This document shows, in pieces, positions 420-24,875 of a DNA stretch of 33,291 bases (positions within the stretch are counted from its first letter, which is position 1; every line of letters starts with the position of its first letter). Both the position numbers and the translations under genes were made by a program. The notes beneath the pieces are model-generated. The model was not told the DNA's origin and searched no databases. It saw nothing but the letters and a program-made list of their open reading frames with translations. This stretch comes from Nitrospirae bacterium MYbinv3. GTDB taxonomy: Bacteria; Nitrospirota; Thermodesulfovibrionia; Thermodesulfovibrionales; Magnetobacteriaceae. The DNA is taken from NCBI GenBank assembly GCA_002753395.1, contig PEAB01000040.1, positions 1 through 33,291 of the forward strand. Direction: 5' to 3'.

Positions 420-2198
420 TTATTCTTCCCTTGCCTTTTCGATTTTCTCCCAATCTGACATGTAGATATCATGCTCTCCCTCTTTTCCTTTCAAGGTGGC
501 TTTTTTATCAAATCTGCATTTGAATCTAACCTGTCCGATTTCGCCGAGTTCCTTAAATGACTCATCGGATAGGCATATTCCGTTCTCATTTGCAAGAGAC
601 TCGTACCTGCTGCCGGTATTGACTACATCTCCAGAGATATCGTTACCATCAATAAGAATAAAACCTGTATGTAATCCAATCCGTAACCCTATTTTCTCGT
701 CAGGCTTTCTGCCTGTATTATACTGCTCAATAAAATCCTTAAACCACCTTTGAATAGAGACAGCGGCGTTGAGCGCATCATCCACAGAACTTGTGAAATA
801 TGATAAGGTGCCGTCCCCCATCTTATTGACAAATATCCCTGTACTGGTTTTAACAATCTTTATTGTCTCGTCGATTATTGGTGAGATTATCAACTTTGCA
901 TTCTCATCTCCAATCTCTGCTGTCAAGGCTGTAGAGCGTTTGAGGTCTGTGTACATCACTGTTGCTTTATGTCTATGACGTTTATTAACTATACGTTTTA
1001 AGAAACCGGGTAACTTTAGTTTTTCGATCAAATCCCACTCAAACATACCAGTATAGACAAAATAAAGACCTCCGGCTGTTATAACTGTAAAAAGAACCAA
1101 CGATACATCAAGGAAGAGATGATTGAACCTTAAACTCATGACCACGGCTGCTATAAGAATCAAGCTGCTCAGCGATACTGATAGGGCATAAGCTTTAAAC
1201 AACCTCTTTGCGGTTTTTTTTGTGTCTTTTGGGAGGTTCATAAACAGATAGAAGATGAATAACTCAAGGGCTGAAAAGAATAAAATGAATAGGATAATAA
1301 CCCAAGATCTTTCTTCGTATGTTGTGAGTTTCTTGGTGTTCTGCAGGAGGTGGACTGCGTTGGCCATGACGTGCAGACCGTAGGTATCGCTTTTATCGTC
1401 GTGATCTCTGTCAAAGCTGCCTACAAGCAATATCTTGTTTCCAAAGACGTCGCTCAGATCTGGGAGCTCTACACAGTTGGAGACTTGTTCGTACTTGTTT
1501 TCTTTCTTGAGGGTAAGGGTATAAACGCTGTTATATATAAAGCGGTACGTTTTGGCCTTAAAGCCTTTTTGATATTGAAAGAGAATCTTGTTGTTATGTT
1601 CTTTGTTCATGCTTAACGGGTAGTCAGCATCTCGGCGTTCGGTATGTTGAGTGAGGAGGACGCCGAAAAATGGCATCAACTCTTGTGTACCGTCGTGTGC
1701 AGGGTTGGTTTTCGTTAGAATTTCTATAAAGTGGCTGTCAAAGTTGACTGAACTGTGGCCGACTGCTGTAAAGATGTCTTTTAAAGCAGGATCATGCTTT
1801 TCTTTACTATTGATGTTCCAGCCGGCGATGACTGGTACGTTTTTGCCCCTGAGTTGTTTCGCTGCATAGATTAACCTATCAGTTGCGTTTTTGACTTTAT
1901 CAGAGCTGATATCAAAAGGTCTTATGAAGTAAACGTCCAGCCCTATGGCCTTGGGTTTTTCGACTGTGCTCAAGAGGAGCGTTAGGAAATCAGCAACGTT
2001 TTTTCTAAACTCAACGTCTTCATCGGCGACAACGTCTACAATGACAATATCGTCAGATGCGGGTGTCTTTTGAATGGCGCCGATCGACGCCCCGTAGATG
2101 TAGAAGTCTATTTCGTTTGTTCGTGTTATATAAATAAGGGCTGTCTCAAGGAGAATGAAAGCGGCCGTGAGAACCAGCAGCGCCTTCTTTTTCTCCAT
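420..2198 (-). CDS. CHASE2-domain class III adenylate/guanylate cyclase
   Basis: Membrane-bound sensor cyclase of 592 residues that should make cAMP (or cGMP). A first membrane helix (about 5-25) is followed by an extracytoplasmic CHASE2 sensor region (about 30-290), three helices (about 299-319, 336-356, 360-382) and a cytoplasmic class III cyclase domain (about 411-560). Catalytic residues are present: metal-binding D418 (MYTD) and D462 (KMGDG), substrate lysine K459, and transition-state N527 and R531 in GDVVNTGSR. The Asp of GDVVN favours ATP over GTP, though this is not decisive. I chose the ATG at 2198, 10 bases past the stop of the upstream FecR-TPR gene, which suggests translational coupling; a TTG 48 bases upstream is possible and neither has a good Shine-Dalgarno site. 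FecR-TPR and CHASE2 cyclase genes are often paired, so this is probably a two-gene signalling operon. Confidence 0.9.
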   Translation of the reverse strand: MEKKKALLVLTAAFILLETALIYITRTNEIDFYIYGASIGAIQKTPASDDIVIVDVVADEDVEFRKNVADFLTLLLSTVEKPKAIGLDVYFIRPFDISSDKVKNATDRLIYAAKQLRGKNVPVIAGWNINSKEKHDPALKDIFTAVGHSSVNFDSHFIEILTKTNPAHDGTQELMPFFGVLLTQHTERRDADYPLSMNKEHNNKILFQYQKGFKAKTYRFIYNSVYTLTLKKENKYEQVSNCVELPDLSDVFGNKILLVGSFDRDHDDKSDTYGLHVMANAVHLLQNTKKLTTYEERSWVIILFILFFSALELFIFYLFMNLPKDTKKTAKRLFKAYALSVSLSSLILIAAVVMSLRFNHLFLDVSLVLFTVITAGGLYFVYTGMFEWDLIEKLKLPGFLKRIVNKRHRHKATVMYTDLKRSTALTAEIGDENAKLIISPIIDETIKIVKTSTGIFVNKMGDGTLSYFTSSVDDALNAAVSIQRWFKDFIEQYNTGRKPDEKIGLRIGLHTGFILIDGNDISGDVVNTGSRYESLANENGICLSDESFKELGEIGQVRFKCRFDKKATLKGKEGEHDIYMSDWEKIEKAREE

Positions 2199-2208
2199 TG
2201 CTGGGGAG

Positions 2209-3645
2209 TCATTTCTGTTCAGCTTGCCTTTGCTTTGCCTCTTCAAGGTTTTTCTTTATCGTAATGAGATTTGGATGTTCAGGAGATACAAACCTTTTAA
2301 GGATATCTACCGCTCTTTCAAGGTATTCAATAGCCTTGTCGTAGCTGCCTTTTGCCTTCCATGCACTACCAATATTGTTATATGAGATTGCAACAGAGGG
2401 ATGTTCCTCCCCAAAGACCTTAAGTTGGATCTTTAGCGCCTTTTCGTAAAACTCAATAGCCTTGTCGTAGCTGCCTTTACTATCCCATGCACCACCAATA
2501 TTGTTATATGAGGTTGCAACAGAGGGATGTTCCTCCCCAAAGACCTTAAGTTGGATCTTTAGCGCCTTTTCGTAAAACTCAATAGCCTTGTCGTAGCTGC
2601 CTTTTGCCTTCCATGCAAGGCCAATATTGTTATATGAGGTTGCAACAGAGGGATGTTCCTCCCCAAAGACCTTAAGACTAATCTTAAGATCCTTTTCGTA
2701 AAACTCAATAGCCTTGTCGTAGCTGCCTTTACTATCCCATGCACTACCAATATTGTTATATGAGGTTGCAATCCAACCCTCATTCGATAATCGTTTAGCA
2801 GTCTCAGACACAGAATCGAACATCTTCAGCGCATCATCGTATCGAGCTAAATAATAGAGTGTTATGCCGATATTGTTTTTATCGGCAAGTAACTTTAGGT
2901 CGTCTCCTGTTTTCTCATCCTCTGCCAATTGCTGCTCGAAATACTTAAGCACATCGTCGTAATTCCTGAACTCTTGAAATGCCTCATCTGTACCAAGATT
3001 ATATCTGACGGAATGCGTCTTCCCTGTGCGTGCTGAAACTATCTCCACCCTCTTAAGACCGGTTATCTCCTTGTCTTTATCTGCGACCTTGATGCTGTAG
3101 TCTGTTGTTACCTCAACTTCTCCCTCGTTGACGGCAAGTGTCATCACCCTCTTTTCCTCATCCACGGTTACGTCAAATATAGTGCCACGCGATGCAATCG
3201 TCCTTGTCCCATGTGTTAAATTGAAAAATCCCCTGGCAAAAACCTTGGATAAAAAACTGCCCATCTTCAGATAATATGACTCGCCCTTGTCCGTAATGTT
3301 TGATACTATAAACGTTGTTCCACTCTTTGTTGTAAGCTCGTTGTTCCTGCTCGAAGAAAATGTAACATTGACGCCTCCAGTGACAGTTACCGTATCCCCT
3401 GTGTAAATCCTGTCACCGACCTTTATGTTCTTGACGATGCTTCCACCCTTGCGCTGGACAACAACTCCGGGGAGCGCATCTCCCACCTTGCTGTAATCAG
3501 ACCTCTTTTGGCTGCCATCATCCTGGATGACAACCCTCCACGCCTCTTTGACGCTTAAATAATAATCCTCACCGGCATACACGAAACTCGAGTAAATGAA
3601 TAAGATTAAATGCAGCGCTATAAATAATCTACAAACCTGCCTCAT
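2209..3645 (-). CDS. Secreted FecR-domain protein with TPR repeats
   Basis: 478 residues. An N-terminal signal peptide (about 1-24, ending FVYAG) sends it to the periplasm. Next comes a FecR-type beta domain (about 60-205, including GDRIYTGD and ASRGTIFDVTV), then TPRs from about 250 to the C terminus. The last TPRs are kinesin-light-chain-like 42-residue units (SYNNIG...KGSYDKAIEFYEKALKI) that are almost identical to each other. I chose the ATG at 3645 rather than an upstream start near 3780: it follows GAAGGAGATAAGGGT, it starts the signal peptide, and the longer version would translate repeat DNA. Role inferred as a periplasmic scaffold or sensor partner of the CHASE2 cyclase encoded immediately downstream. 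The partner ligand is unknown. Confidence 0.88.
   Translation of the reverse strand: MRQVCRLFIALHLILFIYSSFVYAGEDYYLSVKEAWRVVIQDDGSQKRSDYSKVGDALPGVVVQRKGGSIVKNIKVGDRIYTGDTVTVTGGVNVTFSSSRNNELTTKSGTTFIVSNITDKGESYYLKMGSFLSKVFARGFFNLTHGTRTIASRGTIFDVTVDEEKRVMTLAVNEGEVEVTTDYSIKVADKDKEITGLKRVEIVSARTGKTHSVRYNLGTDEAFQEFRNYDDVLKYFEQQLAEDEKTGDDLKLLADKNNIGITLYYLARYDDALKMFDSVSETAKRLSNEGWIATSYNNIGSAWDSKGSYDKAIEFYEKDLKISLKVFGEEHPSVATSYNNIGLAWKAKGSYDKAIEFYEKALKIQLKVFGEEHPSVATSYNNIGGAWDSKGSYDKAIEFYEKALKIQLKVFGEEHPSVAISYNNIGSAWKAKGSYDKAIEYLERAVDILKRFVSPEHPNLITIKKNLEEAKQRQAEQK
2328..2780 (-). repeat. 126-bp tandem repeats encoding TPR units
   Basis: Inside the FecR-TPR gene, the segment around CAATAGCCTTGTCGTAGC recurs at 2328, 2454, 2580 and 2706, a period of exactly 126 bp (42 codons). 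Synonymous positions are also largely identical, so the units come from recent duplication or are kept alike by gene conversion. Copy number could change by slippage or unequal crossing-over without breaking the frame. Confidence 0.9.
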
Positions 3646-8900: not shown

Positions 8901-9782
8901 TTATAACAGACCTGCCCGTTGTATGATTGTTGGTACTTTGTCTTCCATCCCGATGGCCATGATATGAACGCCATCGCATATGTGTTCTTCCTTAAGTTGC
9001 TTGATATGCCTGGCGGCGATATTGAGGCCTGTATCGAGGGCTTTTTCCTTGCCTGCTGCCTTTAGTTCATCTATAAGAGCCTGAGGTACCTTGATTCCAG
9101 GTACGTTATTGTTTAAGAAGTTAGCCATCCCGACGCTCTTTAGCACTACCAGTCCGGCTAAGACTTTGACCGGATAGTTTCTTGCAAAAGACATGAAATC
9201 CTTAAACTTCTCGATGTCATAGATAGCCTGTGTCTGAAAGAATTGAGCGCCTGCCTTGACCTTTTTCTTGAACTTCATAAGTTGTGGTTCAAGTGGGTTA
9301 GCCTCTGGGGTGACTACCGCCCCCTGGAAAAAGTCAGTGGCACCCTTTAATGCGTTGCCGTACATGTCCTTACCATTATTGAGAGAATCTACGACCTGAA
9401 GCAACTGTACAGACTCCATATCGTAAACAGGTTTTGCGCCCTTCTGGTCCCCGGCTGAGACGTGGTCGCCAGTCATAATCAGGACGTTGTGGATACCTAG
9501 GATGCTTGCGCCCAACAGGTCTGACTGAAGCGCTATGCGGTTTCTGTCTCGGCATGTCATCTGAAGTATTGGCTCAAGGCCCTGCTCGATGGCAATCTTG
9601 CAAACAGCAAGAGAGTTTATCCGCATGACGGCTGACTGGTTGTCTGTAACGTTTACGGCGTCCAGTTTACCTTTTAGCAGATGCATGTCGTGAAGCATTG
9701 TTGCAATATCAGTTCCCTTAGGTGGTCCTACCTCAGCCGTTACAACAAATTTACCAGATTGGAGGGTTTCTTTAAAACTCAT
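8901..9782 (-). CDS. metF: Methylenetetrahydrofolate reductase
   Basis: 293 residues. Reduces 5,10-methylene-THF to 5-methyl-THF, feeding the methyl branch of the Wood-Ljungdahl pathway and/or methionine synthesis. Family features: N-terminal FVVTAEVGPPKGTD with the catalytic Glu region, AVNVTDNQ, LQMTCRDRNR, VLIMTGDH (flavin site) and FFQTQAIYD. The ATG at 9782 overlaps the metV stop as ATGA, which fixes the start; an upstream extension would only duplicate metV codons in another frame. The short form without a C-terminal regulatory domain, fused in context to metV, is the arrangement of anaerobic MetFV complexes, where the electron donor is not simply NADH. Confidence 0.95.
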   Translation of the reverse strand: MSFKETLQSGKFVVTAEVGPPKGTDIATMLHDMHLLKGKLDAVNVTDNQSAVMRINSLAVCKIAIEQGLEPILQMTCRDRNRIALQSDLLGASILGIHNVLIMTGDHVSAGDQKGAKPVYDMESVQLLQVVDSLNNGKDMYGNALKGATDFFQGAVVTPEANPLEPQLMKFKKKVKAGAQFFQTQAIYDIEKFKDFMSFARNYPVKVLAGLVVLKSVGMANFLNNNVPGIKVPQALIDELKAAGKEKALDTGLNIAARHIKQLKEEHICDGVHIMAIGMEDKVPTIIQRAGLL

Positions 9783-10471
9783 TGCTTCTTCTCCTTTTCC
9801 GCCTTCTTTTCTTTCTTCTTGTCTTCTCTCATGCGTAGTGAGTGTGGCTTTTGACTCTTGGACCAATCCTTTGGTGGAGCAATCTCTTCCATCTTTTCCA
9901 GTTCGTTGAGCCTCTTCTGCCGTTCGTATATACGTATCCATGCACATGGAATATCGGCGCTTACCTCACAGTTACCGTCCTTCATACCGCCGCATGGGCC
10001 GTTTAAAAGACCCTTTGGGCAGTTGGTTACTGGACATATGCTGCCAGTCATATCTAATACACAGTCTCCGCAGAGGGAGCAGCGCTCATCAAACACCTGA
10101 AACCTTGTCATGTTGCCTAAGAACAGGCTGTCATTAGAGGGGTAGACAGGCTTATCGGGGAATATCTCAACGGCGCTCTGTGTCCCTGCCCCACAGGACA
10201 TGACTATTATGACCTCGGCATTATCACATGCCTCTTTATCTTTTTTCAGCTCTATCTTTGTGCCCAGCGTCTGGCAGCCGGTCTTAGGCACCATCCCTCC
10301 GGTTACGGTCTTTCCTGCTGCCGTGAGTGTCTCCGTCAGATCCTTGATGGCCTCATCGTTGCCAGTCCCGCAGAGGGATGCACACTCCGAACAGCCAATC
10401 AAATAGAAACTCTTATATCTATCGAGGGTCTCTAATAACTTCTTGTTATCCTTCCTTGTAGTTATAATCAT
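9779..10471 (-). CDS. metV: MetV, Cys-rich partner of MetF
   Basis: 230 residues. In acetogens and related anaerobes MetV binds MetF and carries Fe-S and/or zinc sites that deliver electrons to the flavin. Visible Cys clusters: GCSECASLCG near residues 26-35, CGAGT, then CSLCGDC, CPVTNCPKG, GPCGG and NCEV...IPCAW. These match the methylene-THF reductase C-terminal (MTHFR_C) zinc/Fe-S family. The last about 30 residues are highly charged (Lys/Glu-rich). Start ATG at 10471 has CTGGAG upstream and lies 18 bases after folD; its stop overlaps metF by 4 bases, so folD-metV-metF is one operon. Confidence 0.93.
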   Translation of the reverse strand: MIITTRKDNKKLLETLDRYKSFYLIGCSECASLCGTGNDEAIKDLTETLTAAGKTVTGGMVPKTGCQTLGTKIELKKDKEACDNAEVIIVMSCGAGTQSAVEIFPDKPVYPSNDSLFLGNMTRFQVFDERCSLCGDCVLDMTGSICPVTNCPKGLLNGPCGGMKDGNCEVSADIPCAWIRIYERQKRLNELEKMEEIAPPKDWSKSQKPHSLRMREDKKKEKKAEKEKKQ

Positions 10472-10489
10472 GGTATAAAGTCTCCAGTT

Positions 10490-11347
10490 TTACTTGTTAT
10501 TTGATGCGAATTTGGCAGCCTCAACCGTGTTATACATGAGCATGGCTATTGTCATAGGGCCAACGCCCCCTGGTACGGGTGTTATAAAGCCGGCCCTCTC
10601 CTTTGCCGTAGCGAATTCCACGTCGCCCACGAGCTTTCCCTCTGACGTTACATTGATGCCAATGTCTATGACAGCGGCGCCCTCCTTGACCCAATCGCCC
10701 TTGATCATCTCGGCCTTCCCTACTGCGGCACAGAGGATGTCAGCATTAAGACACGTCTCCTTGAGGTCTGGCGTTCTGCTGTGGCAAATCGTAACGGTAG
10801 CGTGTTTCCTTAATAACAGCAGCGATATCGGTTTACCCACTATAACGCTCCTACCTACAACCACTGCGTGTTTTCCCTTTGGGTCAATCCCGTAGGCGTC
10901 TAAGAGCTTTATACATCCATGAGGGGTGCATGGCAGGAAGCCAGGCTCATCCAACACCAGTCTGCCAAGGGCGTCAGGGCCAAAGCCATCAACGTCCTTC
11001 TCCGGGGCTATGCGGTGCATCACTGCCTTCTCATCCAGGTGCTTGGGCAGCGGTAACTGTACTAGAATGCCATGAACACTAGGATCTGAGTTTAGGGTGT
11101 CTATGAGTCTTATAAGTTCTTCCTGAGTAGTTGTCTCAGGTATCTTATGACCAAGGCTCTTGATACCAAGCGATTCACACATCTTTTCCTTGCTTCCTAC
11201 GTACTTCTTAGAAGCAGGGTTTTCACCCACTAAGACAACAGCAAGCCCAGGTACGACACCCTTGGAATGCAGCTCTGCCACTTCCTTTCTCAGTTCATCC
11301 GTTATATCCTTTGAAACCTTCTTACCGTCTATTATGGTTGCAGACAC
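10490..11347 (-). CDS. folD: Bifunctional methylene-THF dehydrogenase / methenyl-THF cyclohydrolase
   Basis: 285 residues, the standard FolD length. Interconverts 10-formyl-, methenyl- and methylene-THF with NAD(P). Motifs: catalytic YVGSK (Tyr49, Lys53), GILVQLPLP (Gln), DVDGFG (Asp), a Rossmann segment VVGRSVIVGKP, and C-terminal PVPGGVGPMT. Start is GTG at 11347, preceded by a perfect TAAGGAGGA Shine-Dalgarno site 5-6 bases upstream; the GTG is followed by the conserved ATIIDGK. First gene of the tight folD-metV-metF group. About 115 bases separate it from the intended end of folE. Confidence 0.96.
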   Translation of the reverse strand: MSATIIDGKKVSKDITDELRKEVAELHSKGVVPGLAVVLVGENPASKKYVGSKEKMCESLGIKSLGHKIPETTTQEELIRLIDTLNSDPSVHGILVQLPLPKHLDEKAVMHRIAPEKDVDGFGPDALGRLVLDEPGFLPCTPHGCIKLLDAYGIDPKGKHAVVVGRSVIVGKPISLLLLRKHATVTICHSRTPDLKETCLNADILCAAVGKAEMIKGDWVKEGAAVIDIGINVTSEGKLVGDVEFATAKERAGFITPVPGGVGPMTIAMLMYNTVEAAKFASNNK

Positions 11348-11463
11348 AAAATCCTCCTTATGTTTATTCTAATAAGATTAGTCTATTAATAAAATTTACT
11401 TAAAGTCTTACTTAAACATAACATCAAGCGCTGCTTGAAGTATGTCATAAAGTGTATGCTTAA

Positions 11464-11568
11464 CTACTGCCTGATCAATGATAGTATCTCGTTACGTGTA
11501 GACTGTCTGCTTCTGAATATCCCCCTTACAGCGGAGGTAACGACCTTGGCGCCGGGCTTCTTTAACCC
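11464..11568 (-). other. Orphaned C-terminal coding tail of folE
   Basis: Reading on in the same frame past the folE UGA gives about 34 more codons, ending at TAG (11464-11466). The predicted peptide includes [16 protein letters not shown] and TRNEILSLI, the conserved C terminus of GTP cyclohydrolase I. The frame is unbroken and the composition is coding-like, so only the single UGA separates it from the main frame. Confidence 0.88.
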
Positions 11569-12021
11569 TCACATGCTCAGACACAGATGTTCGGCCTCGA
11601 TTACTACCATTGTGCCCTTTGGTTTTAGTGAGTCCATGATCAGGTCGGCTAATTGCGTTGTGAGTCTCTCCTGAACTTGCAGTCTCTTTGCCATCAGGTC
11701 GAGGGCCTTTGCTAACTCTCCAATGCCCACAATCTTACCGGCGTGGGGTATATATGCTATGTCGGCCCTTCCAAAAAACGGCAGCATATGGTGCTCACAG
11801 ATAGAATAAAACGTGATATCCTTGAGGATCACCATTTCGTCATGACTTTCATCTTCTATTGGCATAAGAAGTTGTTCCTGATGTGTAGCCATGCCTGAGA
11901 GTATCTCCTCGTACATAGAGGCAACCCTCTGTGGAGTTCTCTTGATGCCGGGCCGATGCACATCCTCCCCAATGCCTTCTAATATCAGTTCTACACCCCG
12001 CTTTATCTTTTCGCTGTCCAT
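11569..12021 (-). CDS. folE: GTP cyclohydrolase I, interrupted by in-frame UGA
   Basis: Converts GTP to 7,8-dihydroneopterin triphosphate, the first step of folate biosynthesis. The open frame is 150 residues, against about 185 for the family. Zinc ligands C75, H78 (CEHH) and C147 (EHLC) are present, as are HRPGIKRTP and [15 protein letters not shown](L)Q. The frame stops at UGA directly after EHLCLSM, exactly where the family has the Arg of the RGV motif (E. coli R185, which contacts the GTP triphosphate). CGA to TGA is one transition. The missing C terminus follows in frame. Either a real nonsense mutation, a sequencing error, or read-through. ATG at 12021 is 2 bases after the cyclo-ligase stop, so it is coupled to the operon. 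Confidence 0.9.
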
Positions 12022-12023
12022 AT

Positions 12024-12647
12024 TTATACTGTTGTAACCGCCTTAATTAAAGGTATAGCAATGTGATTCTTTGCATCTATGATCCCAACGTCTGTAATTA
12101 TCTTGTCAATCCTTATGTCGTGTGGCTGCATCGGAATACTATCGACTAGCTGCTCCACGTAGGCAAGGGCAACCAACAGCGGCCTATTTTTCATGGAGCT
12201 AAGCAGCCTGTCATAGAAGCCGCCGCCATAACCAAGCCTACCGCCAGAGGCGTCAAAGGCTGCCCCAGGGGTTATGATAAGGTCAAAATGTCCCAACTCA
12301 TGTAAGGTTACGCGCCTCGATTCAGAAACGCCAGGCTCAGGGATATTCATACATCCGCTTGCAAGTTCGTCCACGCTCCAGATCTCATATACGTCTAACC
12401 TATGCTCCTTCATGTCAACCTTTGGAAGGGCTATCAACTTACCTAGACCTATGGCCTCCTCTATGATAGTCAGCGTCTCCGGCTCACTCCTGAAGGAGGC
12501 ATAAAACATAACCTTTTTTGCACTTTTAAACTCCTTGAGGGTCAGCAGCCTGTTTCTTATCTCTATGTCCTTTGCTTTTTTGTCTTGAGCGCTGATTGTG
12601 TCTCTTCTGCGCAGGATAAGCTTTCTGATGAGCGATTTTTCTATCAC
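12024..12647 (-). CDS. 5-formyltetrahydrofolate cyclo-ligase
   Basis: 207 residues. Converts 5-formyl-THF to 5,10-methenyl-THF using ATP, returning a dead-end folate to the active pool. Family motifs: [11 protein letters not shown] near the N terminus, [13 protein letters not shown], and the diagnostic [17 protein letters not shown]. Start is GTG at 12647, immediately after the cooC stop (TGA then GTG with no gap), and the stop is 2 bases before folE. Translation of all three is therefore probably coupled. Confidence 0.93.
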
Positions 12648-13448
12648 TCAACGGTCTCTACTGTCGTTGGTGTTTTTGATAGTGGACTCTATGGCTTCTT
12701 TTATGAGCTTTATGTCTGATATTGCATCTGGTGCGTTTTCATACGGTGGGGTGCCTTTTATGTCGGCGTCTATTATATTTTTGCTGAAGCTAACGGCGCC
12801 AACGTAGTTCATCCCTTCCAAGAGTCCTTTTATGAATTGGACATCTCCGCTGTCTCTAACCTTACTGGCAACGACAAAGACGTTAACAACGCCCAATGTT
12901 TTAGCCATATCTCTGACGAGCAGGGCAGTCTGGATGCTCCTCTTACCTGGTTCAACGACAACGATAAAAGCGTCCACCCCTTCAGCCGTCCCCCTGGTAA
13001 GGTGTTCAATCCCAGCCTCCATGTCTACGATTACGACGTCCTCTCTTTCTGTGACAAGATGCTTTAGCAGCCGCTTGAGAAACACGTTCTCCGGGCAGTA
13101 GCATCCAGATGAGGCATCTTTTGATTTTCCCATGACGAGGAGACGGATACCGTTAACCTTTATGCTGCACACCTCCGGTATATCGTCGACCCTTGGGTTG
13201 AGCTTGAAAACACCACCCATACTGCCTGGTTTGGCTCCGGTGCGTTCTTCTATTAGTTGTCCCATTTCGGCGATGGGGCGGAGGTCTTTTGTCTGTTCTT
13301 TGCTCAGTCCGAAGGCAGCCGCCAGGTTTGCATCAGGGTCGGCATCAACGGCTATCACGGTCTTACCCTCGCTCGCAAATAAGTGGCATAACACTGCTGA
13401 GAGTGTGGTCTTGCCCACTCCCCCTTTTCCTGTTATCGCTATTTTCAT
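12648..13448 (-). CDS. cooC: CO dehydrogenase maturation factor
   Basis: 266 residues. MinD/ParA-type ATPase that helps load nickel into CODH or the CODH/acetyl-CoA synthase. It has the deviant Walker A GKGGVGKTT (7-15), VDADPDANLA, the CooC metal-binding CxC pair C116-Y-C118 in GCYCPENV, and Walker B VVIVDMEAGIEH. No CODH structural gene is in the window; it is expected outside or elsewhere. As the first gene of the C1 cluster it links the folate branch to the carbonyl branch of a Wood-Ljungdahl pathway. The start has little Shine-Dalgarno sequence but a good promoter ending 7 bases upstream. Confidence 0.93.
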   Translation of the reverse strand: MKIAITGKGGVGKTTLSAVLCHLFASEGKTVIAVDADPDANLAAAFGLSKEQTKDLRPIAEMGQLIEERTGAKPGSMGGVFKLNPRVDDIPEVCSIKVNGIRLLVMGKSKDASSGCYCPENVFLKRLLKHLVTEREDVVIVDMEAGIEHLTRGTAEGVDAFIVVVEPGKRSIQTALLVRDMAKTLGVVNVFVVASKVRDSGDVQFIKGLLEGMNYVGAVSFSKNIIDADIKGTPPYENAPDAISDIKLIKEAIESTIKNTNDSRDR

Positions 13449-17649: not shown

Positions 17650-19869
17650 TTAGAAGTCAACCGGTACATCGAGCAGCGTAGGGGTCTCTCCATTGCCTGG
17701 TGTATCGATAGTGTCTGGGATGTCTCCGTTACCGTTATGTGACTCCATGCTGTTATTAGGGTTTGTGCTATCCTGGGTATCCACGCTGATAAGCTCGATG
17801 GAATCATCAACGAGTTCGATGCCTGCTTCAACAGGCTCCGCTGTAGACACCTCGGTTGGTTGTTGCTGTGGAGTGCTGGTATTAAGCTCGCTACATACTG
17901 ACTTGCCCTCATCCGACGTTAGCCATTTGATAAACTCAAATGTGTCCCTGTAATTTACAGAAGGATAGATGAGAGGGTTTACAGCCATAACATAGTAGTA
18001 ATAATCTATAACAGAATTGCTGTCTATGAAGATTTCAAGTTTGAGATTTTCAGTGGAATTCAGGTACTCAAACGTGACTTGATCGGTAATGGTGTATGCC
18101 TTGAGCGCTTCAGTCAATTTAAGTGTGTCGGACATGGTTTGTCTTGTCTCTACATACCATGATTTTCCAGCAGGATCAATGTCTAACTCCTTCCACAATG
18201 TCATTTCTTGCAAATGAACACCGGAGTTGTCACCACGTGAGATAAAAAGACAATCCCCATGTTGTGCTATTATCCGTAAGGCCTCCTGATGTGTGGTCTT
18301 AGAGCTGAGTTTAGCTGGATTTGAATAGTGGCCTACCAACATGAGTCTGTTCTGATTTAGCTGATGCACATTTACAAAACATTTATCCATATTATTGAGT
18401 TCTTCATTGGTGAGCGCTGCAAACACTATATCTACACTGCCTCTCTTGCCAAGTTCCAGGGCTAATCCAGACGTAACGGGTAGTACGTGTATCTCTATGT
18501 CTTCTTTTTTCACATAAACAGGGATCATGTGTTGAAAGCTGCCCATATCTACAAGGCTCGTTGCCGCTGCGCAATTGATTTGTCTAGTCTTTGTACGCCT
18601 CAGTAATGCTTCCATCTCTGCATATTTTGTGTTGACATCCCTGAGTCTTTCGGAGATCACCGAGGAGAGGTTTCTGTAGAGTTTAAAGCATAGGCTCTCG
18701 CTGGTTTTTCTTAGTACCACCTCGTTGATCTCAATAGTGGTACAATGCGTCTGAGCCGCTGCTGTGGCAGAACGCAAGGATTGATCGAGGATTGCCATCT
18801 CGCCAAAACAGGCGCCCTGTCCTAATGTGGCAATGGTCTCTTCCTTATCTGCGACATTTTTAGATATTATTACCTTCCCGCTAATCAGTATGTACATCTT
18901 CTGTCCGACAGTGCCTTCTTTAAATATCACATCCCCAATTGCATACGTGACAATGTTACTCATGTTCATGATCTGCATTATCTCGTTTGGTGTAAAATCA
19001 CAAAAGAAGGTGTAGTTTTCTTTCAGCGAGATTATGAGGTCTTTCATGTCCTGGTCTGTTAGTTCAGGTAGATCTGCACACTCTTCTTTCTCAAGAGAGT
19101 GGAGGAATAGCTCAAGATCATCGGCAAGCTCTGATGCTGAGGTGTAGCGGTCTTCCTTGTTCCTTTCGAGGCCATGTATGACGATCCTGCTTACCTCGTG
19201 CGGGATGTCATTGTTGATCTCATACAGAGGGGTAGGGGTCTCCATGAGGACTGTCTTAAATAGGGCCTGGAGTGATTCTGCGAAAAACGGCTTTCTTCCT
19301 GTAAACAACTCATATGCCAGAACAGAGAGGGAGTATATGTCCGTTTGACGGTTGAGGGGTTGTCCAAACAACTGTTCTGGAGACATGTAGTGGGGGGTGC
19401 CGGTTAAATAGGTCTTTGAGTTTTCAGCGTTCTTGGACTCGGTGTCGGCAATACCGAAGTCCATGATCTTTATCTGACTGTCGTCGATTATCATGATGTT
19501 AGCTGGTTTTATGTCTTTGTGTATGATACCGTTTTGATGGGCGTAGTGGAGTGCTCTAGCAATGAGGATTATTATTTTTATCTTTTCTTTCAGCGGCAGC
19601 CTTGTATGTTCTGCTATGATGTTTTTCAAGGTAACACCGTTGATGTACTCCATAAAGATGAAGTGTGTGTCGTCGTATTTCTCTACGTCGTAGATCATGG
19701 TGATGTTGGGATGGTGGAGCTTACCGAGGTTTTTTGCTTCTCGTAGATTGTTTGCCGTTTTGGCAGCAACAATCCTTTCTATAACCGTATCGTATCCCTT
19801 GTATACAACCCCCTGTGCCCCACGCCCTACCTCCGTAAGATTTATGTATCTACCTAAGTTAAGTATCAT
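17650..19869 (-). CDS. Ser/Thr kinase - cNMP-binding - TupA-like oxyanion-binding fusion
   Basis: 739 residues, three recognisable modules. Residues 1-265: Hanks-type kinase with GRGAQGVVYKG (Gly loop), K37, catalytic HKDIKPANI (117-125), DFG (137-139) and MSPE (162-165). Residues about 285-410: cyclic-nucleotide-binding (CAP-like) domain with GQGACFGEMAILD...RSATA, the phosphate-binding cassette. Residues about 430-660: a complete TupA/PBP-like_2 solute-binding domain with AAATSLVDMGSF, VTSGLALELGKRG, FISRGDNSGVH, SWYVETRQTMSDTL, and NPLIYPSVNY...FIKWLTSDEGK, all in the order of tungstate-binding TupA. The last about 80 residues are low-complexity and acidic. There is no signal peptide or membrane helix, so the binding domain should be cytoplasmic. 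I infer a kinase gated by cAMP/cGMP and by an oxyanion (tungstate or molybdate); targets unknown. ATG at 19869 after GGAGGGAG. Confidence 0.9.
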   Translation of the reverse strand: MILNLGRYINLTEVGRGAQGVVYKGYDTVIERIVAAKTANNLREAKNLGKLHHPNITMIYDVEKYDDTHFIFMEYINGVTLKNIIAEHTRLPLKEKIKIIILIARALHYAHQNGIIHKDIKPANIMIIDDSQIKIMDFGIADTESKNAENSKTYLTGTPHYMSPEQLFGQPLNRQTDIYSLSVLAYELFTGRKPFFAESLQALFKTVLMETPTPLYEINNDIPHEVSRIVIHGLERNKEDRYTSASELADDLELFLHSLEKEECADLPELTDQDMKDLIISLKENYTFFCDFTPNEIMQIMNMSNIVTYAIGDVIFKEGTVGQKMYILISGKVIISKNVADKEETIATLGQGACFGEMAILDQSLRSATAAAQTHCTTIEINEVVLRKTSESLCFKLYRNLSSVISERLRDVNTKYAEMEALLRRTKTRQINCAAATSLVDMGSFQHMIPVYVKKEDIEIHVLPVTSGLALELGKRGSVDIVFAALTNEELNNMDKCFVNVHQLNQNRLMLVGHYSNPAKLSSKTTHQEALRIIAQHGDCLFISRGDNSGVHLQEMTLWKELDIDPAGKSWYVETRQTMSDTLKLTEALKAYTITDQVTFEYLNSTENLKLEIFIDSNSVIDYYYYVMAVNPLIYPSVNYRDTFEFIKWLTSDEGKSVCSELNTSTPQQQPTEVSTAEPVEAGIELVDDSIELISVDTQDSTNPNNSMESHNGNGDIPDTIDTPGNGETPTLLDVPVDF

Positions 19870-22198: not shown

Positions 22199-22216
22199 TT
22201 AACCGGAAACCGGTTA
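22199..22216 (-). other. Hairpin at the VIT-VWA stop codon
   Basis: TAACCGG-TTT-CCGGTTA on the minus strand; the TAA at its 5' edge is the VIT-VWA stop codon (22214-22216). No U-run follows, so it is more likely an RNA-processing or stability hairpin between this gene and the small secreted protein than a terminator. Confidence 0.5.
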
Positions 22217-24496
22217 TTCTAATTCGTTTATCTTTTCAGACATCTTTTCAAGTTCTTTAATTTCTTTAACGTATTTTGAAACCCATTCTTCCAGTGTAAC
22301 GCCTTCCAAGCTCGGACGACAACGCTCTGTCTCAGCACTCAACCATGCCCTTACCTTTGAGAGGATATCCAAACTTTCAGGGTTCGTTACGTGAAAGTCC
22401 GAAAGTAACTCAATGAGTATTTGCGTGGAAAGAAGTCTGTATTTGTTAGTCTTCTTTTCAGTTTTTATCTTTTTGGCTAACTTCTTGATTTCCTTGATAG
22501 AAATGCCAAAGATAGAAATGCCAAAAAAGTCAGCGATTGTAGGATCAAGCTCAACCCCCTTTCCTTGTTCAAGGATTGAGTTGATATGTTCCAAAAATGA
22601 TTTTTTAGGAAGACAGCACACAAATACCTCCTCAATCTCAAGCCCTGGTGGTATATCCATCGCCATCTCTTCTTCATCGCCACCCCATCCATGCAGCAAC
22701 TGAGCCGGCACTTTTCTTAAGACAACCTGTTCGTCTCTGTTATTATTGTCCAGCCTTCTTTCAACCGTTACATAAGAGGTCTCACGACATATAAGGCCGT
22801 ATTTCTTTGACAGACTGACCAACTCGTCGTTGACTGCATTCTTGTCTTTTCGCTTGCTCTGCCTGGAACCAGTTATCGCCAGGCTGTTTTCCTCAACTTC
22901 TCTTATCTTTTCCCTTGCCCACAGCACAGGGATTGGGATAGTGCCACCCTCGACCCTTTTCAGTGGCACTGTCCAGTCACTATGTCTTTTACCGTTTATA
23001 GTACCGCTTATATGGATCTCATCATGTTTTAAAATCTCAGAGTCTCTTGTCTTTGCAAATATGCAGATAGAATCCCCTTCATAAACTACAGGGCGAATAG
23101 GTACCTGGTCAAGATCAACACTCCCTGTGATCTCTACATCTCTGATACATACTCCTTGTGCCTTACTGAAAAAATCCAATGCCTTTGCCTCAATGTCTGC
23201 GGCATCTGGAGAGATAAATGCAGCGGCAGCGCCTGACATTGAAGCCGCCTGCTTAATCAAATAATCATTGCTTCCATATCCTATACCGACGATAAACAGT
23301 TGGATTGTCCTCGAATTAGATTTAATAAGCTGAAAAATCCCCTCTTCATTTCCTGTTAATCCATCTGTGAGCATTATAATGCTTCTCCTAATATCAGATT
23401 TAACAGGACTGCTGAACACATGCTGTAATAAAGGAAGTATCTCAGTACCACCTAAGTCGGCGTCTATCTCTGAAACGTATTTTAAGGCAGCAGCCTTATT
23501 ACTTCTATTGTACGGTACGCTCAACGGGAAGACATTCTTATAAGAATCGCCAAACACGTATAAATTAAACAGCATTCCTTCCTTCATTGTATTTTTGATG
23601 GCTGCTTTAACGATACGTTTTGCGGCTTGTATAGGGGCGTTTTGCATCGAGCCAGAACAGTCTACCAAGAAAATAATTTCCTTAGGCTCATCATTCCTTT
23701 CTGTTTTCTCAGATTCTTTGATATTATTTACAAAATCTATCTGAATAAATCTTTCGTTCCCGTCGTCATACAAAAAACCCCTTGTGGTAAAATCTCCCTT
23801 ATACCTAACGTTAAGAACAAAATCCCTGTCCATTACGTTGGTATTGGATGTGAGACTAACGGTGATGCTATCATCATTAAAACTATTGCTGACTTTATGA
23901 GAAGGCGATTCTATGCCTAAGATATCTTCTTTCCCGTATACGTTAACGCTAAGGCTTAAAGAGTACATGGCCTGCTTCGTAAGCGGTGGATTCAGCAGCT
24001 CGTCTACCGGTATACCATCAATGTCTTCAACATAATCCGGCACATATCGAGGCGCTATGGTTGTAGGCAGATAGAATCGCACCTCATTCTTGTTTACGTC
24101 AAGCATGGTAACATAACGTATCTCTAATATCACAACGTCACCTGACAGGATATTTCCAACGGACAGGGTAAAGATATTAGGCTTTTCCTCATCCAGGAGA
24201 AACGCGCCATGCCCCTCAGAGATGGCCTTATCGTAAATGTGGAACGCCCTATCCCTTTCCTCAATCTCCCCTTCAAGGACCCTATCCCCAGTTGTTACCT
24301 TAAAACCACAGACGGAACAATCGGCTGGAAGAGGGAACTTATATACCGCCTCAATGGCTGTGGGTTCAGTGTTTTTAAAACGTTGGACTATTTTCACCCG
24401 CGCCCCTCTCCCAATAATGTCCCCATACACCTCAACAGCCGTCAGAGGGACTGCAACTTTGTTTGTTGTAAGAAGTCCAAAACTTGGTTCAAACAT
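22214..24496 (-). CDS. VIT-VWA domain protein
   Basis: 760 residues. An N-terminal VIT (vault / inter-alpha-trypsin) domain (about 1-135, with VKIVQRFKNTEPTAIEAVY and GHGAFLLDEEKPNIFTLSVG) is followed by a VWA domain (about 272-440). Its metal site (MIDAS) is intact: D279-C-S281-G-S283, T351 and D378 (MLTDG). The C-terminal about 150 residues are helical and unassigned. There is no signal peptide, so it is likely cytoplasmic, as for many bacterial VIT-VWA proteins whose function is unresolved. ATG at 24496 has AAGGGG upstream and overlaps the MerR gene by 8 bases, tying its translation to the regulator. Confidence 0.9.
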   Translation of the reverse strand: MFEPSFGLLTTNKVAVPLTAVEVYGDIIGRGARVKIVQRFKNTEPTAIEAVYKFPLPADCSVCGFKVTTGDRVLEGEIEERDRAFHIYDKAISEGHGAFLLDEEKPNIFTLSVGNILSGDVVILEIRYVTMLDVNKNEVRFYLPTTIAPRYVPDYVEDIDGIPVDELLNPPLTKQAMYSLSLSVNVYGKEDILGIESPSHKVSNSFNDDSITVSLTSNTNVMDRDFVLNVRYKGDFTTRGFLYDDGNERFIQIDFVNNIKESEKTERNDEPKEIIFLVDCSGSMQNAPIQAAKRIVKAAIKNTMKEGMLFNLYVFGDSYKNVFPLSVPYNRSNKAAALKYVSEIDADLGGTEILPLLQHVFSSPVKSDIRRSIIMLTDGLTGNEEGIFQLIKSNSRTIQLFIVGIGYGSNDYLIKQAASMSGAAAAFISPDAADIEAKALDFFSKAQGVCIRDVEITGSVDLDQVPIRPVVYEGDSICIFAKTRDSEILKHDEIHISGTINGKRHSDWTVPLKRVEGGTIPIPVLWAREKIREVEENSLAITGSRQSKRKDKNAVNDELVSLSKKYGLICRETSYVTVERRLDNNNRDEQVVLRKVPAQLLHGWGGDEEEMAMDIPPGLEIEEVFVCCLPKKSFLEHINSILEQGKGVELDPTIADFFGISIFGISIKEIKKLAKKIKTEKKTNKYRLLSTQILIELLSDFHVTNPESLDILSKVRAWLSAETERCRPSLEGVTLEEWVSKYVKEIKELEKMSEKINELE

Positions 24497-24875
24497 CTTG
24501 ATTCCCCTTAAGTATAGTTTTCGATAATTTGACAACGTCAAATATTTTTTTCCTCTCGCTATCTTCTATATCCTTCCTGACGTGAATCTCCAGGCCAGGG
24601 ATTATTTCATACTTAAACCACACCTCCCGATTCGTTTCTGTTTTATGTACTTCGCTTGATTTATCAAGGTTGACTATATCCTTTAGCCTCATTCCATTTT
24701 CCTGCATGCCTTTGATCTGGCGCAGTTTGTCTATATGACTGTCGTTATAGAAGCCTCCACGGCCTCTGCCCTCCGGTGGTTCTATTATGCCTGAGCTAAC
24801 ATAGTACCGTATGGTTCTAAGACTGAAGCCTGTCATCTCAGATACTTCATTGATAAGATACTTTTTATTTGACAT
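24489..24875 (-). CDS. MerR-family regulator
   Basis: 128 residues. N-terminal MerR winged helix (YLINEVSEMTGFSLRTIRYY, then a wing rich in Gly/Arg, PPEGRGRGGFYNDSHIDKL) and a short C-terminal part without Cys, so not a metal-type MerR sensor. It is translated first in the operon with the VIT-VWA gene, whose start overlaps its stop. A consensus promoter sits directly upstream with a dyad in its spacer, suggesting autoregulation. The ligand is unknown. Confidence 0.9.
   Translation of the reverse strand: MSNKKYLINEVSEMTGFSLRTIRYYVSSGIIEPPEGRGRGGFYNDSHIDKLRQIKGMQENGMRLKDIVNLDKSSEVHKTETNREVWFKYEIIPGLEIHVRKDIEDSERKKIFDVVKLSKTILKGNQDV

Follow-up and report, generated by a model that had tools for sequence, protein, structure and literature searches.

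How a domain related to the TupA receptor of tungstate importers might come to work inside a cytoplasmic kinase is the question raised by a gene of the Nitrospirae bacterium MYbinv3, found on contig PEAB01000040.1 (the window, 33,291 nucleotides; contig C64 of a 3.7 Mb genome in 175 contigs). The gene is a single 739-codon open reading frame on the minus strand (17650-19869), free of internal stops and frameshifts, encoding a kinase, a cyclic-nucleotide-binding (cNMP) domain, a TupA-like domain and a low-complexity tail, an order supported by Pfam, NCBIfam and the orthologues. Pfam matched Pkinase (residues 10-246, E 1.3e-48), cNMP_binding (residues 307-388, E 1.4e-19) and PBP_like_2 (residues 434-654, E 9.1e-12), each exceeding its gathering cut-off; these profiles and that of TupA were matched over full domain lengths, which, with matches in the PDB, confirms the proposal of the first-pass annotation that all three modules reside in one protein. 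The tail (residues 662-739; 17653-17886, minus strand), delimited by orthologue comparison, evolves fast (25-49% identity), yet ends in a conserved GNG-(D/E)-x-PT-x-x-D motif.

A soluble, cytoplasmic location is most likely for the fusion protein, given that no 19-residue segment exceeded a mean hydropathy of 1.32. No membrane helix was found in the four orthologues, whose peak 19-residue means ranged from 1.05 to 1.32. In addition, the stop-to-stop frame spans 744 codons and a GGAGG lies shortly 5' of the ATG, leaving no hidden N-terminal extension or signal peptide, in agreement with the earlier claim that neither a signal peptide nor a membrane helix is present.

A source genome fragmented into 175 contigs might have led two adjacent genes to be joined through misassembly or misannotation, an explanation that now has next to no probability. 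The fusion was present in all four genomes examined of Magnetobacterium, a genus of magnetotactic Nitrospirota (G000-G003, including Candidatus Magnetobacterium casense MYR-1), the orthologues being 70-72% identical to the window protein. The four separate assemblies share the same junction (RRTKTRQI-N/R-CA) and architecture, and the frame itself is uninterrupted. Recurrence in four genomes shows that the fusion is neither a chance event nor an assembly chimera, and the latter is thereby refuted.

The architecture appears confined to the genus. Of 396 genomes sampled from the phylum, G003 not being among them, only G000, G001 and G002 matched the cNMP-TupA junction (E<=1e-54), and no fusion was found outside Magnetobacterium. 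A contig scan with cNMP-domain patterns, favouring close relatives, returned only the three Magnetobacterium orthologues, and a scan of viral contigs found no relatives. Of 100 related genomes, 76 from outside the genus gave TupA matches, none of them in a frame longer than 411 aa and most in frames of 265-330 aa; the relatives encode standalone TupAs of ~280 aa and, separately, kinase-cNMP proteins. Literature searches combining kinase, cNMP and solute-binding terms, or kinase, tungstate and PBP (periplasmic-binding-protein) terms, with incomplete coverage of subscription papers, returned nothing relevant, so that the earlier impression of an undescribed architecture holds for the genomes and literature searched.

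The Hanks-type Ser/Thr kinase domain (residues about 5-252; 19114-19857, minus strand; PF00069) carries the full set of catalytic motifs, with G15xG17xxG20 of the Gly-loop, the beta3 lysine K37, the alpha-C glutamate E44, H117-K118-D119, N124, DFG 137-139 and P164-E165 invariant in all four orthologues. The description of this kinase as complete therefore stands for its catalytic motifs and fails for the segment between K37 and E44, which is 10-16 residues shorter than in the paralogues (a spacing of 7 residues vs 17-23), and for the HRD motif of the paralogues, which is replaced by HKD. The short beta3-alphaC segment and HKD may change the regulation of the kinase, and its activity is not assured because of them. 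Stk1/PknB-type Hanks kinases have PASTA repeats outside the cell and a helix in the membrane. This family (NF033483) gave the top NCBIfam match of the fusion kinase (258.7 bits, residues 6-265), which nevertheless falls under the 450-bit cut-off and differs in being soluble.

The CAP-like cNMP domain, with its C-terminal helix (residues about 285-425; 18595-19017, minus strand; PF00027), contains the canonical phosphate-binding cassette FGEMAILDQSLRSATA with the Gly-Glu and Arg that characterise CAP-like domains, E357 and R366 being invariant in all four orthologues; the cassette is thus as intact as had been claimed. Ten class III cyclase matches in the same genome suggest that cyclic nucleotide is probably available in the cell, and the one in the window, a 608-aa class III nucleotide cyclase (420-2246, minus strand; PF00211, E 2.2e-10), is a possible source of the signal for the fusion kinase.

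The TupA-like domain (residues about 431-661; 17887-18579, minus strand), assigned by NCBIfam, PDB and site comparison, is homologous to TupA over its whole length. The NCBIfam TupA profile (NF041772) aligned to residues 426-661 over positions 12-249 of 266 (E 1.3e-35), and a PDB sequence search retrieved the TupA structures 3lr1 (E 6.7e-36) and 5my5 (E 1.3e-25), which bears out the view of a complete domain. The score of 123 bits did not reach the 400-bit equivalog cut-off, a strict threshold that none of the control genomes with matches reached either. AlphaFold2 models built from a shallow four-sequence alignment attained a pLDDT of 31 for the full protein and 35.5 for the TupA domain, and the PBP fold is accordingly assigned here by sequence homology.

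The binding pocket has been altered. In the TupA of D. alaskensis the oxyanion site comprises Thr9-11, Ser12, His59, Arg118, Thr124 and Asp170, of which Arg118 was mutated by Otrelo-Cardoso and colleagues (PMC5517513). We compared the fused domains of all four proteins, in one alignment, with 23 standalone TupAs, 19 from relatives and 4 from the PDB. All four fusions keep Thr11 (T437), Ser12 (S438), Arg118 (R545), Asp120 (D547), Ser122 (S549) and Asp170 (D596). By contrast, five positions that are invariant in the 23 standalone TupAs differ: Thr124 is V551 and Gly150 is R576 in all four fusions, Thr10 is A or S, Gly40 is T or S, and His59 is replaced by A, T, A and E across the four, with no consistent substitute (A436, A485, V551 and R576 in the window protein at the positions of Thr10, His59, Thr124 and Gly150). 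The first-pass annotation had called the segment SRGDNSGVH an intact oxyanion site; the equivalents of Arg118, Asp120 and Ser122 are indeed kept, whereas the Thr-to-Val change at a named binding residue within it indicates that the site was partly rebuilt. An intact tungstate site is not supported for any of the four fusions: of the seven invariant binding residues, Thr10, His59 and Thr124 are substituted, and Arg stands where every standalone TupA has Gly150.

That V551 and R576 are the same in every fusion points to selection for an altered site, and the variability at the position of His59 points towards relaxed constraint. Across the columns invariant in standalone TupAs, the fusions keep 25 of 40 overall and 4 of 7 among known pocket residues, so the pocket is preserved no better than the scaffold. 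This lack of preferential retention, together with the variable residue at His59 and the long stem that leads to the fused TupA domains (2.28 changes per site), would fit an alternative in which the domain no longer binds any ligand and serves the kinase as a docking, dimerisation or substrate-recruiting module. Against it, none of the four orthologues deviates in the SRGD-x-SG loop, at S438 or D596, or at the newly acquired V551 and R576, a combination more suggestive of a new site under selection than of decay. Purifying selection has also acted on the fused domain after the divergence of the four species: NG86 dN/dS was 0.17, 0.23 and 0.25 for the TupA domain in the three pairs whose dS was least saturated, and 0.07-0.10 for the kinase domain in these pairs. 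We regard the ligand-free module as unlikely, and think it probable that the fused domain is an internal sensor for some anion.

The origin of this putative anion sensor can be followed in the gene family. Throughout the family, each genome encodes one to three kinase-cNMP proteins of 436-519 aa that lack TupA and stop directly after the cNMP helix; the two in the MYbinv3 genome (C36, 445 aa; C77, 486 aa) have the same domain order as the fusion and 49-50% identity over about 410 residues, and differ from it in ending there and in retaining a full beta3-alphaC segment and HRD. Reading of the sequence places the 445-aa paralogue about 1.4 kb from opposite-strand genes for an FHA-like protein and a PP2C-like phosphatase (L034:4660-8928). 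The fused kinase-cNMP core forms a separate, fully supported clade, and hence it appears to be an extra kinase-cNMP copy that gained the TupA domain; the fused TupA domains likewise form one clade.

In the canonical TupABC importer, TupA is exported and partnered by TupB and TupC. The sister genus g2 keeps all three genes, with tupA, tupB and tupC side by side (L036, L038). The fused domain shares with the TupA receptor (3lr1, 5my5; NF041772) whole-domain homology, the SRGDxSG loop, Ser12, Arg118 and Asp170; it differs in the changed Thr10, His59, Thr124 and Gly150, and in lying in the cytoplasm behind a kinase and a cNMP domain in a genus without a TupB partner. No TupB orthologue was found in the four Magnetobacterium genomes, where the best matches were 29-33% identical, the best in the MYbinv3 genome (33%) falling inside a ModABC locus. 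That genome yielded no standalone TupA, and neither a canonical TupA nor the canonical TupABC importer was found in the genus. The simplest reading is that the importer was lost alongside capture of its receptor, a reading limited by genome completeness of 56-97%.

Could the captured domain nonetheless report tungsten or molybdenum? The first-pass annotation had proposed a two-input kinase gated by cAMP or cGMP and by a metal oxyanion; with tungstate or molybdate in that place, it would report the W/Mo status of the cytoplasm. Tungstate is a possible ligand: the equivalents of Ser12, Arg118 and Asp170 are retained in a domain of the TupA family, and the R118Q variant of D. alaskensis TupA still binds tungstate, at 90 nM (PMC5517513), so a partial change of the pocket need not abolish binding. 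The replaced Thr10, His59, Thr124 and Gly150, invariant in the 23 standalone TupAs, speak against it, as does the lack of TupB in the genus, owing to which the tungstate supply would rely on ModABC.

The metabolic setting bears on the same proposal from both sides. The genus has molybdopterin enzymes, with six matches in the MYbinv3 genome, and a selenocysteine formate dehydrogenase, and the window contains a block of methyl-branch genes of the Wood-Ljungdahl pathway (8901-13448, minus strand), identified by Pfam and sequence reading. Pfam assigned methylenetetrahydrofolate reductase (MTHFR), its DUF5981 partner and an ATPase, whose CooC-like label comes from sequence reading, as do FolD, GTP cyclohydrolase I and 5-formyl-THF cyclo-ligase. 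No tungsten-type aldehyde ferredoxin oxidoreductase was found in the Magnetobacterium genomes. The supposed C1 and W/Mo context is upheld in general.

Gene neighbourhood gives this reading one argument, from a single genome. In G002, fhs and a formate dehydrogenase cluster precede the fusion on the same strand, with 92 bp between fhs and the start of the fusion. The formate dehydrogenase gene just upstream (L030:11927-14674, minus strand) has a single in-frame TGA where selenocysteine is expected (NNVDNCARV*HAPTVAGLATS). The link to formate dehydrogenase was not seen in the other genomes: in MYbinv3, fhs lies on a different contig (C117) and the fusion is flanked by genes for Lcl_C-domain and PD-(D/E)XK proteins. 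Neighbours read from the sequence are DUF58-like and histidine-kinase-like genes in G001 and arsenic-resistance-like genes in G003. Since the neighbourhood differs in every genome and fhs is elsewhere in MYbinv3, the link of the fusion to fhs and formate dehydrogenase is weak. Weighing both sides, we consider a kinase gated by cyclic nucleotide and tungstate or molybdate rather doubtful. A conserved operon partner was likewise rejected, the neighbours being different in each genome. Elsewhere in the window, a 775-aa VIT-VWA (inter-alpha-trypsin-like) protein adjoins a MerR regulator (22214-24541, minus strand).

Other proteins of this kind appear to have been placed in new contexts. The MoeA-PBP fusions (MoeA1), whose PBP domain was described as a ModA homologue, resemble the present protein in having a Mo/W-type periplasmic-binding-protein domain inside an intracellular fusion, and differ in that the domain is attached to a cofactor-making enzyme rather than a kinase (PMC11733289). 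Within the family, three genomes including M. casense have a TupA-like lipoprotein gene directly before, and overlapping, a HAMP histidine kinase gene (L033:5600-8499, plus strand; L037:5370-9196, plus strand; L039:2953-5807, minus strand); two of the three kinases have a dCache sensor, and neither TupB nor TupC stands alongside. These are candidate extracytoplasmic anion-sensing pairs. Like the fusion, they pair a TupA-family receptor with a protein kinase and have Gly150 replaced (R/K/N); unlike it, they consist of separate genes with an extracytoplasmic receptor and a histidine kinase output, and they keep His59 and Thr124. In the wider order, extra TupA copies just upstream of tupABC (L040:2484-3311, the L015/L040 locus; L021:569-1351; L027:2815-3642) keep the full site and apparently have no signal peptide (e.g. 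MKKGKTRLVIASTTS...); they may be free-standing cytoplasmic TupAs. At L040 a LysR-type gene is divergent from the extra copy. LysR-type regulators also have intracellular PBP-like domains. The lipoprotein-kinase pairs and the extra copies suggest that functions outside uptake have probably drawn on TupA-type proteins on more than one occasion.

Taken together, these observations indicate that a copy of a family-wide kinase-cNMP gene appears to have been extended at its C-terminal end by a TupA-derived domain, with the C-terminal helix of the cNMP domain as the connection. In the mechanism that we propose, the TupA-like clamshell would bind an anion in the cytoplasm, a small oxyanion or another, by means of Ser12, the Arg118-Gly-Asp-x-Ser-Gly loop and Asp170; its ligand signal would pass to the kinase through the cNMP C-terminal helix, so that clamshell closure and cyclic nucleotide on the CAP domain jointly set kinase activity towards presumed substrates. 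With Thr10, His59, Thr124 and Gly150 replaced, the ligand or the affinity has probably changed from picomolar tungstate. That the fusion is a genus-specific soluble kinase whose activity is set by a remodelled TupA-derived anion sensor together with cNMP seems to us about as probable as its opposite. More tentatively, and with a probability somewhat short of even, the receptor, captured in a genus that lacks its importer and with its pocket rebuilt through Gly150Arg, Thr124Val and the loss of His59, may sense a different intracellular anion, making this a two-input kinase that couples a second messenger to anion level.

The family Magnetobacteriaceae thus offers three comparable states of one receptor: it is part of an intact TupABC in the sister genus, it is paired as a TupA-like lipoprotein with a histidine kinase, or it is fused to a cytoplasmic kinase. 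If the proposed reading is true, the receptor of a transport system would have been placed inside the cell behind a second-messenger domain, an unusual wiring of anion levels into Ser/Thr phosphorylation.
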